Below, piece by piece: positions 42,954 through 47,394 of a DNA stretch of 64,000 bases; positions within the stretch are counted from its first letter, which is position 1; each line of letters starts with the position of its first letter. The position numbers and the translations under genes are program-made. Source of the DNA: Termitidicoccus mucosus (GTDB lineage Bacteria; Verrucomicrobiota; Verrucomicrobiia; Opitutales; Opitutaceae). Under the pieces are notes generated by a model. That model worked only from the letters and a program-made list of their open reading frames with translations, was not told the DNA's origin and made no database searches. Location: contig NZ_CP109796.1 of the NCBI RefSeq assembly GCF_038725785.1, positions 3,224,001-3,288,000 on the forward strand, in the 5' to 3' direction.

Positions 42954-43778
42954 TCAGGCGGCCGCGGCGGGAAGCTGGGACTTGGAACCCTTGAAACGGC
43001 GGTAGCCGACAAACCCGAGCAACGCACCCGCGCCGATCAAGCCGTAGGTCGAGGGCTCGGGAACGGCGGTCGCGCGCGGCGGAATGAACTGGAAGGCGAC
43101 GACGAGGTCGTTGAAGTCGGCATCGTAGAACGCCGCCGAGTTGCGGGCGTCCTCGAAACCGACAAGCAGCGTGTCGAGGAGGCCGGTGACAAGGTCGCCA
43201 TTGGCGTCGATGTAGGTCGTCTCCACCTGTGTCACCGTCCACTTGGTGTGCAACGAGAGGTCGCTTCCGGAATAGTCGTTGATCGCGCCGAAGGCATGGA
43301 ACACACCGCCTTCGCCGCCACTGTTGAGGAAGAAATCCAGCGTCTCGCCGGCGGCATGGGGAATATAAACCTCATAACCGCTGACGGCGTTCGTCTCGCT
43401 GTCGATGCCGGTGAGCAGGGGGGTGTGCACGCCGGGCGCCGCGCTGGACATGTAGCCGAAGTCATTCAACCACGTGGCGGTTTCGCCGATATAGATCGCC
43501 TTTACTAACCCTGCATAATCAAAGGGGTTGTAGCCGAGTATGCTGGTCAGATTGATGGCCCCGTCGTTCCATGTGGAAATCACACTTGGCACGGTGGCGT
43601 CGGATGAGAAGTAAAAGCTTCCAAGTCCCGCGCTGTAGCTGACCACATTGCTTGCGTAGACTGGCGGCGCAAACGAGTTGGTAGCTGGCAACGGGTCAGG
43701 TAGCTGTGCATTCAAGGGCATTGCGAGCAAGGCGGCAAAACCCGTGATTGCCAATAGGCTGGCACGTATTTTTTTCAT
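42954..43778 (-). CDS. PEP-CTERM surface protein 1, DUF4114-like
   Basis: A 274-residue exported protein: signal peptide (SLLAITGFAALLAMPLNA) and a PEP-CTERM sorting tail (VPEPSTYGLIGAGALLGFVG, then YRRFKGSK), which an exosortase should cleave after export. The region just before the tail (LVGFEDARNSAAFYDADFND, LVVAFQF) fits the calcium-binding-like DUF4114 motif. It is one of three paralogues here but the most diverged, with a different N-terminal half. No exosortase gene is in the window. A 47-bp motif shared with the other two lies about 107 bp upstream. Confidence 0.92.
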   Translation of the reverse strand: MKKIRASLLAITGFAALLAMPLNAQLPDPLPATNSFAPPVYASNVVSYSAGLGSFYFSSDATVPSVISTWNDGAINLTSILGYNPFDYAGLVKAIYIGETATWLNDFGYMSSAAPGVHTPLLTGIDSETNAVSGYEVYIPHAAGETLDFFLNSGGEGGVFHAFGAINDYSGSDLSLHTKWTVTQVETTYIDANGDLVTGLLDTLLVGFEDARNSAAFYDADFNDLVVAFQFIPPRATAVPEPSTYGLIGAGALLGFVGYRRFKGSKSQLPAAAA

Positions 43779-43884: not shown

Positions 43885-43932
43885 GCAAGGCGTTCATGGT
43901 AAGGACGGCCCCGCTTGGCCGCTGGGGGAATC
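43885..43932 (-). promoter_or_regulatory. PEP-CTERM upstream motif, copy 1
   Basis: On the plus strand: gcaag, then ggtaagga, then gggggaatc 39 bp after the first base. Distance to the start codon of the gene is 107 bp. Copies 2 and 3 have the same parts at 41 and 40 bp. This copy is the least exact. Confidence 0.55.
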
Positions 43933-44045
43933 CCTTACAAGCCCGGCCGCCGCCCGTCGCCATTATATATTTTCCCCTGGCGGGAAACGCGCCCGCGGCA
44001 TTTGCCGCCATCGCATGGCGCCGGCGGCCCGCGACCGGAATGCAT

Positions 44046-44075
44046 AAAAAAGGCCGCCCCTTTTCCGGGGCGGCC
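44046..44075 (-). terminator. Intrinsic terminator of second PEP-CTERM gene
   Basis: A 9-bp stem ggccgcccc/ggggcggcc with loop ttttcc, then six T residues on the minus strand. Confidence 0.9.
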
Positions 44076-44116
44076 GGGCCATGTGGATGTGTTGTCGTTG
44101 CCGGCACGCCGCGCAA

Positions 44117-44950
44117 TCAAGTCGCCGCGGCCTGGCGGCGGCTCGATTTGAAACGGCGATAACCGACGAGACCCAGCAACACGGAGGCGCCGATCAAGCC
44201 GTAGGTCGAGGGCTCGGGCACGGCGGTTTGCTGGGCGGGCAGGAACTGGAAGGCCACGACGAAGTCATTAAAGTCCTCATCATAGATGCCTTGGTCGTTG
44301 CGCGCATCCTCATATCCGACCAGGATCGTCGGAACAAAATCCGTCACCCAAGCGGAACCGTCCCAGTAATTGGTGAGGACCGAGGCCAAGGCCCAATAAG
44401 TATGGATCGAGGCGTCCGTCCCGGCATATTCATTGGAAAGCCCGAAAGCGTAGAACAATCCGCCCTCGCCGACCGGCCCTCCGCTGTTGACAAAGAAGTC
44501 CAAGGTTTCGCCGGCGCCGTAATTGACGACATGCTCGTAGCCGCTGACCGGATTGCCGCTGGTCACGTCCGTGACGAGAGGCACGTAACTCGGGGGCCCT
44601 GGCGGAATCTTGACATAACCGAAATCGTTTTCCCATTCGGCAGTCTTGCCGAGGTAGACGGCCTTTACCGCGCCGCCGCCAGCCTGCCAATATCCCGATA
44701 CGTCGGCCTGCCCGGGCGCCCAGGTGCTGATGATGCTCGGAACCGTGTCGGTCGAATCAAAATACAAATTCTGGCCGAACAAACTGGCTCCCACGCCGAA
44801 TTGGGCGTTATAGAGGCCGAGATTGGTGGCCGACGGTGATGAGAACAGGTTCACGCCGCTCGGAAACGGCGCGCCGATCTGGGCATTGGCGGTGAAGGTC
44901 AGTCCGGCGGCAAAGACCGCGGACAACATGAGTTTTGCAGACGTCTTCAT
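44117..44950 (-). CDS. PEP-CTERM surface protein 2, DUF4114-like
   Basis: A 277-residue protein: signal peptide (LMLSAVFAAGLTFTANA), DUF4114-type segment (LVGYEDARNDQGIYDEDFND), then the tail VPEPSTYGLIGASVLLGLVG and a basic end. It is a close paralogue of the protein at 46246-47088, sharing for example GAPFPSG/FPSGINLFSSPSA-like and DFGYVKIPPGPPSYVPLV segments. It should be anchored or processed by an exosortase in the envelope. Own terminator, own upstream motif, so separately transcribed. Confidence 0.93.
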   Translation of the reverse strand: MKTSAKLMLSAVFAAGLTFTANAQIGAPFPSGVNLFSSPSATNLGLYNAQFGVGASLFGQNLYFDSTDTVPSIISTWAPGQADVSGYWQAGGGAVKAVYLGKTAEWENDFGYVKIPPGPPSYVPLVTDVTSGNPVSGYEHVVNYGAGETLDFFVNSGGPVGEGGLFYAFGLSNEYAGTDASIHTYWALASVLTNYWDGSAWVTDFVPTILVGYEDARNDQGIYDEDFNDFVVAFQFLPAQQTAVPEPSTYGLIGASVLLGLVGYRRFKSSRRQAAAT

Positions 44951-45060
44951 GGTTTTATTTCCATTTTATACATGCATGCGGGGTGCTGGATGATTTTGCC
45001 GGTTGCGGCACACGCATCACAGCGGTTTACCCTGCACGTTGCCTTCCCTTCCCCAAAATT

Positions 45061-45109
45061 GCAAGTAATCGGCGGGTAGGAGTATGTCCGCGATCAATGT
45101 AGGGGAAAC
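45061..45109 (-). promoter_or_regulatory. PEP-CTERM upstream motif, copy 2
   Basis: Plus strand: gcaag-taatcgg-cgggtaggagta, then ggggaaac 41 bp from the first base; 111 bp upstream of the start codon. The part gggtaggagta is identical in copy 3. Confidence 0.65.
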
Positions 45110-45423
45110 CATTATTAGCAAAACTGAAGATTTTATAATCCAATATCTTGCGCGCCAGAAAGTGAAATCCGATTGCGGACTGATTATCATATTCTATGAC
45201 ATGATAAACATCCGCGCCGGTTGCGACAGGCCGGCGGAGCCGCCCGCATTTGTTTATTTCCCCATGAGACGCCGGATTAGCCTGAATAATATAAACCATG
45301 CGGCACCGTCCGCATAATCACATCTTCACGATGCCGCATCATGCGATAAGAAATACTCCATTTAACCAAGTTTTAATCCGCCGCGCCTTGCAGTGCGCCT
45401 CCTCCAATCCATGATAACAAGTT

Positions 45424-45876
45424 ATGACTTTACATCCCAAGAATCAAGAGGCTCAAAAACTTACCCTGGAAGAAATCACGTTCATAGAGCGGGCCAGACT
45501 TTCGCACAAATACACGGAATTCACCTTCACGACAAAACATGGCACCTACCGGGGATATGGCAGGACCATCGAGGAGGCCCTGGCCCATGTCACCCCCGCC
45601 GCGCCGCCGGAGCCCATCACCGCCCAGGCCGCCACCGTGCTTGCCATCGGCCGCGGTTTTTTCGCGAAATTCCTCAATAGCGGAAGCCCCAAGACAGAGC
45701 TGCATTTCGCCAAGGCCAAACTCTTTTCTCCGAACAATCCAAGGGAGCTCGAGGAAGTCATCTCGAGGCTCTCCGTCCTGGGTATCACTCCTGTGCATAA
45801 GAAGATAATAATCACCCAGGACCACTCCATGGCCGGCGATTTCCCCTCCGGGTATCCGGGCCAGGCATCCCTCTAG
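45424..45876 (+). CDS. Protein of unknown function between PEP-CTERM genes
   Basis: A 150-residue soluble protein starting MTLHPKNQEAQKLTLEEITF. It contains YTEFTFTTKHGTYRGYGRTI, which looks like two beta strands and a turn, and a C-terminal half with ELEEVISRLSVLGITPVHKK. No signal peptide, no family recognised. It lies on the opposite strand to the PEP-CTERM genes, divergent from gene 2. The region 44951-45423 before it is AT-rich and, apart from motif copy 2, shows no feature. Confidence 0.7.
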   Translation: MTLHPKNQEAQKLTLEEITFIERARLSHKYTEFTFTTKHGTYRGYGRTIEEALAHVTPAAPPEPITAQAATVLAIGRGFFAKFLNSGSPKTELHFAKAKLFSPNNPRELEEVISRLSVLGITPVHKKIIITQDHSMAGDFPSGYPGQASL

Positions 45877-46030
45877 AATAGTTTGACAGGACCACCGCCG
45901 CCGCTGGCGATGTAACCCAATGGGTCACATCGCGTCGGGGAAACCTGACAATATTTCAGGCCACAAACCCGGCCGGGGTATTATGACCCGTTGGCCATCG
46001 AGTCTTTTTTCCAAGGTTGCCCAACTACGC

Positions 46031-46058
46031 AAAAGCCGCCCCATGCCAGCGGGGCGGC
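46031..46058 (-). terminator. Probable terminator of third PEP-CTERM gene
   Basis: Stem gccgcccc/ggggcggc with an 8-nt loop, followed by TTTT on the minus strand. It resembles the terminator of gene 2 but lies about 190 bp past the stop; a family C repeat sits in between. Confidence 0.65.
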
Positions 46059-46091
46059 CTTGTGTGACTATTTTAATATTGGAGCGGTAGC

Positions 46092-46156
46092 GCCGGCAGG
46101 GCGAAGCCTCCGGCTGAGCCGCGGCTCGGCGGGGACGCCTCGCCCTACCATTTTGA
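46092..46156. repeat. Palindromic repeat, family C copy 3
   Basis: Reads cagggcgaagcctccggctg, then ggctcggcggggacgcctcg ending in ccctaccattt. The inverse orientation of 23526-23579, with matching flanks (gagagaatactata). It is in the 369-bp gap between the unknown protein and the third PEP-CTERM gene. Confidence 0.85.
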
Positions 46157-46245
46157 GAGAATACTATAAACCGTTTCAGCGTCTGCTACTCGCCTGAAGG
46201 GACAACCCCTCCAGTTTGCCGGCTGCCACGGCATGACCACATGCC

Positions 46246-47088
46246 CTAGACGGATTGGGCGGGGGCGGGCTGGTGCCGGGACGCCCTGAAACGGCGATAC
46301 CCCACAAGCCCGAGCAAAGCACCCGCGCCAATCAAGCCGTAGGTGGCGGGTTCGGGAACGGCGATTTGCTGGGCGGGCAGGAACTGGAAGGCCACGACAA
46401 AATCATTAAAATCCTGATCGTAATATCCCTGGTCGTTGCGCACATCCTCGAACCCGACCAGGATCGTGGGGACAAGGCCGGTCACCCATGCGCTGCCATC
46501 CCAGTATTCGGTATTGACGAGGACGGAGGACCAATAGGTATGCACAGAGCTATCCGCCCCGGCATACTCATTGGAGAGCCCGAAGGCATAGAACAATCCG
46601 CCCTCGCCGACCGGCCCTCCGCTATTGATAAAGAAGTCGAGCGTCTCGCCCGCGTCATAGTTGACAATATACTCATATCCGCTGACGGGGTTGCCGCTGG
46701 TCACGTCCGTGACAAGCGGGACGTAATTGGGGGGCCCGGGCGGGATTCTCACATAGCCAAAGTCATTTTCCCAACCGGCAGTCTTGCCCAGATAGATGGC
46801 CTTGACCGCGCCTCCGCCAGCTTCCCACAAGCCGGACACATTGGCCTGGCCAGGGGTCCACGTATTGATGACACTGGGCACCGTGACGGTGGTGTCAAAA
46901 TACAGATTCTGCAGGAACAGGCTCGCGCCGGAACCGAACTGGGCGTTGTAGAGAGCGACGTTGGTCGCTGATGGCGATGAGAACAGATTAATACCGCTCG
47001 GAAACGATGGACTGATTTGGGCACTGGCCGTAAATGCCAGGCCGGCGGCAAAGGCCGCGGACAATATGAATTTTGCAGGCGTCTTCAT
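46246..47088 (-). CDS. PEP-CTERM surface protein 3, DUF4114-like
   Basis: A 280-residue protein: signal peptide (FILSAAFAAGLAFTASA), DUF4114-type segment (LVGFEDVRNDQGYYDQDFND) and tail VPEPATYGLIGAGALLGLVG. It is highly similar over its full length to the protein at 44117-44950, so the two arose by a fairly recent duplication. The C-terminal end after the membrane segment is longer (YRRFRASRHQPAPAQSV). Same class of expected localisation: exported and sorted by an exosortase encoded elsewhere. Confidence 0.93.
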   Translation of the reverse strand: MKTPAKFILSAAFAAGLAFTASAQISPSFPSGINLFSSPSATNVALYNAQFGSGASLFLQNLYFDTTVTVPSVINTWTPGQANVSGLWEAGGGAVKAIYLGKTAGWENDFGYVRIPPGPPNYVPLVTDVTSGNPVSGYEYIVNYDAGETLDFFINSGGPVGEGGLFYAFGLSNEYAGADSSVHTYWSSVLVNTEYWDGSAWVTGLVPTILVGFEDVRNDQGYYDQDFNDFVVAFQFLPAQQIAVPEPATYGLIGAGALLGLVGYRRFRASRHQPAPAQSV

Positions 47089-47201
47089 AGTTTAGCTTTC
47101 CCACTATACATGCATGTTAGTTGCGTTGGACGACCATGATTGTCATAATTGCTGGAATCATAGCCTTTCGATTTGCATATTTCCTTCATCTCAAGACCGG
47201 T

Positions 47202-47250
47202 GCAAGCGTCTGCCGGGTAGGAGTACCCCCCCGGGCGGTGTGGGGGAATC
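47202..47250 (-). promoter_or_regulatory. PEP-CTERM upstream motif, copy 3
   Basis: Plus strand: gcaag-cgtctgc-cgggtaggagta, then gggggaatc 40 bp from the first base; 114 bp upstream of the start codon. Inside it, taggag and ctccta form inverted ends of a hairpin. The rest of the 306-bp gap to the next gene shows nothing. Confidence 0.65.
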
Positions 47251-47394
47251 TCCTATGCCTGAAATTACTTATGCCTTCGCGAACTGAAATGGCCCTGCCT
47301 GAAGCATAAAGCCCGTCCGCAAACAGGCATTATTCATTTCCCATCCGCCGAATGATATAGACCCGTTTCCCGCCCGGCATGCCATCCCGGCGTA

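Follow-up and report, generated by a model that had tools for sequence, protein, structure and literature searches.

A 15-bp dyad as a probable shared operator of exopolysaccharide, exosortase and PEP-CTERM genes in the Opitutaceae

The stretch of the Termitidicoccus mucosus genome analyzed here (the window; 64,000 nucleotides, positions 3,224,001 to 3,288,000 of contig NZ_CP109796.1) carries three PEP-CTERM protein genes, all on the minus strand and all matching PF07589 (PEP-CTERM motif) over its cut-off (3/3). Each is preceded by a palindromic sequence, here named Box A, which was scored as TNRGGGWWWCCCYNA (15 bp, maximum 19; strong, 17 or more), and by a second half-site and a CTTGC element. 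The home genome (7.92 Mb; G000, with other genomes numbered likewise) has six detected PEP-CTERM genes, five over the Pfam cut-off and one just below, followed by four weak PEP-CTERM matches of the strength seen in control genomes. The features of the locus are as follows.

42954..43778, minus strand: gene 1, PEP-CTERM protein of 274 amino acids, with a DUF4114-like match below cut-off
44117..44950, minus strand: gene 2, PEP-CTERM protein of 277 amino acids, 80% identical to that of gene 3
46246..47088, minus strand: gene 3, PEP-CTERM protein of 280 amino acids
43923..43937, minus strand: Box A dyad of gene 1 (sense TAAGGGATTCCCCCA), score 19/19
43898..43905, minus strand: second half-site of gene 1 (plus strand GGTAAGGA; sense TCCTTACC)
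43885..43889, minus strand: CTTGC of gene 1 (GCAAG on the plus strand), a possible -35 element, starting at base 34 after Box A
45100..45114, minus strand: Box A dyad of gene 2 (sense TAATGGTTTCCCCTA), score 17/19
45074..45084, minus strand: second half-site of gene 2 (plus strand GGGTAGGAGTA)
45061..45065, minus strand: CTTGC of gene 2 (GCAAG on the plus strand), starting at base 35 after Box A
47241..47255, minus strand: Box A dyad of gene 3 (sense TAGGAGATTCCCCCA), score 17/19
47215..47225, minus strand: second half-site of gene 3 (plus strand GGGTAGGAGTA)
47202..47206, minus strand: CTTGC of gene 3 (GCAAG on the plus strand), starting at base 35 after Box A
44052..44075, minus strand: terminator-like hairpin (9 pairs, all G-C) and T-run on the 3′ side of gene 2

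The initial annotation had described GCAAG, GGTARGGA and GGGGAA at fixed spacing before all three genes. Its letters and coordinates check out, including the identical gggtaggagta site of genes 2 and 3 (at 45074 and 47215), and the layout holds at a distance from the genes that was given as 107-114 bp and is measured here as gaps of 106-113 bp, one less (sense-strand CTTGC starts 111, 115, and 118 bp before the ATG of genes 1, 2, and 3, respectively). The gggg(g)aa element, whose start lies 40 bases (gene 1) or 41 bases (genes 2 and 3) from the start of GCAAG, is present, but as half of the 15-bp dyad rather than as a separate unit. A gapped pattern fitted to the layout finds exact matches only at genes 2 and 3 in the whole home genome, and its reversed control finds none; gene 1 is missed because it has one spacing base less. 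The terminator-like hairpin after gene 2 suggests that gene 1 has its own promoter, in a region with six such hairpins versus 4.4 (standard deviation, 2.2) in shuffles.

Relatives of the window protein (E 1e-8 or better) occur in 8 of 252 family genomes and 6 of 49 genera, some of them as short C-terminal matches; a profile scan of genome contigs with the protein alignment returned 112 stretches and no confirmed relative. In G006, from another genus, two tandem relatives lie in a syntenic neighborhood, with a panE-like gene on one side and a fumarylacetoacetate-hydrolase-like gene on the other (names by eye), and the plus strand upstream of the first relative reads GCAAG, 8 bases, GGGTAAGAT, then TAGGGGAAACC, which is the same layout. 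The orthologue in G112, from a third genus, combines a perfect dyad (TGAGGGAAACCCTCA) with a CTTGC at unchanged distance, and the sequence between them has CCCCAAC in place of YTACC. The YTACC half-site is therefore kept in one further genus (G006) and CTTGC at a fixed distance in two (G006 and G112); in all five orthologous promoters, counting the three of the window, CTTGC starts at base 34 or 35 after the dyad.

Over a 65-bp block, the upstream regions of genes 2 and 3 are identical at 38 of 65 positions, and those of gene 2 and the G006 orthologue at 40 of 65 in the same register, each compared with a random maximum of 32 in 300 comparisons. Gene 1, which had been said to keep the layout as a diverged paralogue, does keep the landmarks, with the shorter spacing noted above, but its block identity with gene 2 (28/65) is within the random null (maximum 32); likewise, the G112 orthologue reaches 26/65, at another offset and within the null. 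When these promoters are anchored on the dyad, identity is 8-13/15 in the dyad window, a value that the anchoring itself inflates, and mostly 1-6/15 upstream of the dyad. Such similarity could in principle be left over from shared ancestry without any function, given that genes 1 to 3 are tandem relatives, that the proteins of genes 2 and 3 are as close as listed above, and that their upstream identity extends beyond the block (7-9/15 in windows 45-90 bp past the dyad start). This explanation is quite unlikely, however, since identity peaks in the block, also between genera whose proteins are about 50% identical, and since the dyad recurs before unrelated genes.

To compare PEP-CTERM genes at large, 79 loci of five relatives were fetched (fetched/counted matches: G006, 15/18; G112, 27/33; G012, 17/19; G022, 13/33; G005, 7/21; none of 137 in G007), the omitted matches being those beyond the ones listed and some long frames. 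When 62 upstream regions (59 of them from three of the relatives, plus the three of the window) were submitted to motif discovery, the palindrome TcgGGGtTTcCCcga emerged. A strong Box A was found in 17 of 82 upstream regions (G000, 3/3; G006, 5/15; G112, 8/27; G012, 1/17; G022, 0/13; G005, 0/7), while random 260-bp windows, mostly of coding DNA, reach 17 in only 4 of 1732 (G006), 3 of 1748 (G112), and 6 of 1223 (G000) cases, or 0.2-0.5%. This enrichment is partly circular because the scoring scheme was devised with the sites of G006 and G112 already known. The exact core GGGWWWCCC occurs three times in 3.9 kb (G006) and four times in 7.0 kb (G112) of PEP-CTERM upstream DNA, compared to two and four times, respectively, in 200 kb of background from each genome, the non-open-reading-frame part of which holds one copy in 7.9 kb (G006) and none in 4.0 kb (G112). 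In a less circular test, the exact 15-bp pattern has 27 sites in nine genomes versus one for a reversed, equally palindromic control, and nine versus none in the home genome. Three of the six PEP-CTERM genes of the home genome have a strong dyad, one has a weak dyad (16/19), and two have none (13/19 each).

The other two elements of the layout behave differently from the dyad. Of 24 dyads, 7 have a YTACCC and 14 a CTTGC no more than 70 bp away; the observed counts of 8 and 17 compare with 1.0 and 5.2 expected from the genome background and with 2.6 and 7.1 expected from dyad-less PEP-CTERM upstream regions. On the latter expectations, the YTACC half-site and CTTGC were rejected as regulon-wide elements and were kept for this gene family only. 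The full three-part layout is found only at this gene family and is therefore absent before most other PEP-CTERM genes examined, a result that the initial annotation had named as counting against its proposal. Motif discovery on PEP-CTERM upstream regions, which it had recommended, does find a shared element, but that element is the palindrome and not the letters described. The idea of a selected cis-element of a PEP-CTERM regulon is supported by the layout kept in G006, the dyad and CTTGC in G112, and the dyad before other PEP-CTERM genes.

Sites beyond the PEP-CTERM genes point to a wider set of targets. One home-genome site (TAGGGGTTTCCCCTA, C1:5897536) sits just before two divergently oriented genes, one for an exosortase (PF09721) and the other for a WcaI-family glycosyltransferase; in G007, the dyad lies between a WcaI-family gene and a gene that is exosortase-like by tblastn (48% over 484 residues), and a long frame after that dyad (L207:4759-8982) has no NCBIfam match. 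Another home-genome site is found 75 bp upstream of the probable start of gmd, whose product exceeds the TIGR01472 cut-off; the next gene belongs to the epimerase family and is taken for fcl. Dyads also precede gmd-fcl in G005 and G019. Dyads stand before wcaJ-like genes in G006, G112, G007, and G050, the region in G050 being shared with an outer-membrane gene. With twelve query proteins, an exopolysaccharide (EPS) or PEP-CTERM neighbor was found at 10 of 43 Box A loci, of which one (L181) is a self-match and another (L250) a weak glycosyltransferase match (31%), versus 0 of 30 control loci; in the family-wide pattern scans, 30 loci were listed per pattern, and the control loci come from genomes other than those of the Box A loci. 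The twelve queries were picked after the first loci had been seen, and the G005, G019, and G050 cases came later and are unselected. At two further loci (L188 and L190), PEP-CTERM genes unmatched by the twelve queries were recognized by eye near the dyad.

Box A is over-represented in part of the family and kept at orthologous promoters of several genera. The promoter regions in which it lies include those of EPS, exosortase, and PEP-CTERM genes, and several of these regions are divergent. We consider it likely, on sequence evidence, that Box A is the operator of one dimeric transcription factor co-regulating EPS synthesis, exosortase, and PEP-CTERM proteins in the Opitutaceae. The earlier interpretation is partly supported: it was right in kind, the dyad recurring before other PEP-CTERM genes, but was centered on the wrong letters and too narrow, since exosortase, gmd-fcl, wcaJ-like, and glycosyltransferase promoters are included. 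If the proposal holds, a 15-bp operator joining EPS initiation, sugar-nucleotide supply, exosortase, and PEP-CTERM genes would open the control of the matrix in this verrucomicrobial family to testing, and it would support, from regulation alone, the view of PEP-CTERM proteins as matrix proteins co-produced with EPS. It would also make biological sense for matrix polysaccharide, sorting enzyme, and sorted proteins to be made jointly.

In the proposed mechanism, a symmetric dimer would bind Box A and, at the window genes and the G006 orthologue, may also touch the YTACC half-site 23 bp further on, about two helical turns away as judged by inspection. The bound factor would then help RNA polymerase at a weak promoter, with the conserved CTTGC (or TTGC) as its putative -35 element. 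Two wcaJ-like promoters share TAGTAT 45-46 bp past the dyad, whose center is about 53 bp before TAGTAT; if TAGTAT is their -10 element, the dyad center would be near -65. Activation appears likelier than repression because the dyad lies upstream of -35-like elements, and a role as an activator site is plausible from its position.

Several observations weigh against a single operator of this kind. Most of the PEP-CTERM upstream regions (65 of 82) score below 17, including all 13 from G022 and all seven from G005, and the second tandem relative in G006 has no dyad (12/19). When the 62 regions are dinucleotide-shuffled, 36 of 3100 shuffled sequences score 17 or more, a higher rate than in random genome windows; for window genes 1, 2, and 3 alone, the counts are 40, 17, and 23 of 2000. 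The family-wide excess is modest, with the pattern in 125 of 252 genomes versus 93 of 252 for the reversed control. In the interval from Box A to the start codons of genes 1 to 3, a scan with the sigma-70 consensus detected no promoter, and matches to that consensus in the region are not in excess (2 versus 2.1 expected). No cognate regulator was found, and regulators near Box A sites, as judged from crude gene calls, do not recur between genomes. Finally, four of the nine exact home-genome sites are in duplicated segments (two of them inside an open reading frame) and one is inside a TonB-plug reading frame, so about half of the home sites look unrelated.

These duplicated sites, together with the palindromic nature of Box A, are what a small dispersed palindrome of the repetitive extragenic palindromic (REP-like) type, accumulating in intergenic DNA, would lead one to expect. 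That origin is nonetheless very improbable: there are only nine exact copies in 7.9 Mb, each 15 bp long, with flanks that differ between promoters, and different genera have retained the sequence at their gmd, wcaJ-like, and exosortase promoters. The duplicated segments themselves (L195/L201 and L196/L202; G000:C1 near 0.32, 0.42, 7.55, and 7.61 Mb) hold near-identical genes twice, ParA-like and conjugation-like by eye, and are probably mobile.

The inverted repeats might instead fold in the 5′ untranslated RNA as a structured leader or attenuator, a reading to which we assign little probability. In genes 1 and 3, base pairing between the left arm of Box A and the second half-site is possible; gene 3 adopts this fold at z -1.85, and the G006 orthologue has a predicted fold at z -2.07. 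The values for gene 1 (z +0.28) and gene 2 (z -1.30) speak against it, as do predicted structures that differ among the four usable sequences and the lack of an Rfam family (one match, E 0.98, 24 bits versus a gathering score of 99). The dyad also occurs in divergent promoter regions, for which one RNA leader is a poor explanation.

Regulation of PEP-CTERM genes by sigma-54 has a precedent in Proteobacteria, where upstream motifs 1 and 2 were described with PrsK/PrsR and sigma-54 (Haft et al. 2006, PMC1569441; see also PMC9850573). By analogy, CTTGC could be a -12 element, resembling as it does the -12 TTGC, and Box A the enhancer site of an NtrC-like enhancer-binding protein such as PrsR. AauR, a sigma-54 activator of Pseudomonas, binds a vaguely similar dyad, TTCGG-N4-CCGAA (PMC7962211), and all four genomes tested encode proteins that match the PrsR model (TIGR02915) below its cut-off. 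In none of the four is the cut-off exceeded, however; the five orthologous promoters all lack GG at -24 of the conserved CTTGC, and gene 3 lacks any GG-N10-GC in 300 bp. When the best -24/-12 match from Box A to the start in each of 28 promoters was compared with 300 random stretches, the most unusual, at gmd in G000, was equaled by 10 of 300, which can arise by chance in 28 tests. A sigma-54 arrangement is therefore very unlikely here. The AauR site shares with Box A a GG...CC dyad but differs in spacing, in its dependence on RpoN, and in serving amino-acid transport genes.

According to Haft et al. (PMC1569441), the proteobacterial motifs are common only to Proteobacteria among the species discussed, and more regulators and motifs are expected elsewhere. 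The present case resembles that system in having a conserved two-part cis-element before PEP-CTERM genes with large non-coding regions in an EPS-tied system. It differs in having no -24/-12 element, no PrsR over cut-off, and an unrelated dyad, and in a Box A set that includes EPS, exosortase, and gmd genes. The best reading is that Box A is a different element from the proteobacterial motifs and, as far as tested, not a sigma-54/PrsR arrangement. A 2025 survey of sigma-54 that includes Opitutia has neither "exosortase" nor "exopolysaccharide" in its main text. Among the papers listed by a literature and literal-sequence search, there was no report of such an operator, most subscription papers being outside its scope.

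The wcaJ-like, wcaI-like, gmd, and fcl-like genes have counterparts in colanic-acid synthesis, in part as judged by NCBIfam names. The nearest analogue in role is the RcsAB box TaAGaatatTCcta of enterobacterial capsule genes (PMC4325325), which is likewise a dyad, comparable in length to Box A, and likewise precedes genes for EPS biosynthesis (here wcaJ-like, WcaI-family glycosyltransferase, and gmd-fcl genes). At hmsC, the RcsAB box is 59 bp upstream of the start and has an extra half-site. On inspection, the cores differ (GGGWWWCCC in Box A versus AGaatatTC), as do the phyla.

Of the 19 GerE-domain matches in the home genome, one lies no more than 1.5 kb from a perfect Box A, and two others, both weak GerE matches, have a Box A of score 17. 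The former is a receiver-GerE (NarL-type) response regulator (L198 3189-3848), convergent with a receiver-Hpt-like gene (Hpt below cut-off) that has TAGGGGTTTCCCCTA upstream; the receiver-Hpt protein has no DNA-binding domain match. A scan confirmed two relatives of the regulator, one of them in Geminisphaera colitermitum TAV2 (73% identity), and the fetched flanks of the two hold no strong Box A (best scores, 16/19 and 14/19). The NarL-type regulator is only a lead as a candidate binder of Box A, for example of TAGGGGAAACCCCTA. It is conceivable, if unlikely, that this regulator and the receiver-Hpt protein, both encoded next to the perfect Box A (G000:C1:1210182-1212230), form an Rcs-like phosphorelay of the Verrucomicrobiota that controls polysaccharide, exosortase, and PEP-CTERM genes via Box A and that evolved independently of enterobacterial Rcs and proteobacterial PrsR.

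Other regulator genes near Box A sites were set aside. An AraC-like gene recognized by eye in G112 (C27, L206 6299-7285) is non-recurrent; it follows a glycosyltransferase gene that shares its promoter region and Box A with a wcaJ-like gene. Two genes near home-genome sites, a LacI-family gene (L200 8671-9855) and a LacI-like gene near gmd (L219, by eye), are also not recurrent between genomes. In G007 (C1, about 5.301-5.305 Mb; L208/L226), a cluster of KaiC-like, KaiB-like, and histidine-kinase genes, named by eye, is close to a wcaJ-like gene and has no obvious link.

In G022 (C1:3719188-3720891; L139), the gene for a LuxR-type regulator terminates a short way before a PEP-CTERM gene, with GGGTAAGGTCACCCATTGGG overlapping the stop codon of the regulator gene. 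This arrangement may possibly represent another form of PEP-CTERM regulation; none of the PEP-CTERM genes sampled from this genus has a strong Box A.

In the home genome at about 2.325 Mb of C1 (L006, L194, L217), a weaker-scoring exosortase gene stands beside a gene for a large vWA-like protein (by eye), whose C-terminal sorting signal is just below the PEP-CTERM cut-off; before this exosortase gene, no strong Box A occurs (13/19). Within the window, the interval between genes 2 and 3 includes an open reading frame of 150 amino acids (45424-45876) with no Pfam or NCBIfam match at E 1, and an imperfect second dyad at 45911-45952, TAACCCAATGGGT then GTCGGGGAAACCTGAC, which lies 3′ of gene 3, with no gene start nearby and no obvious target.

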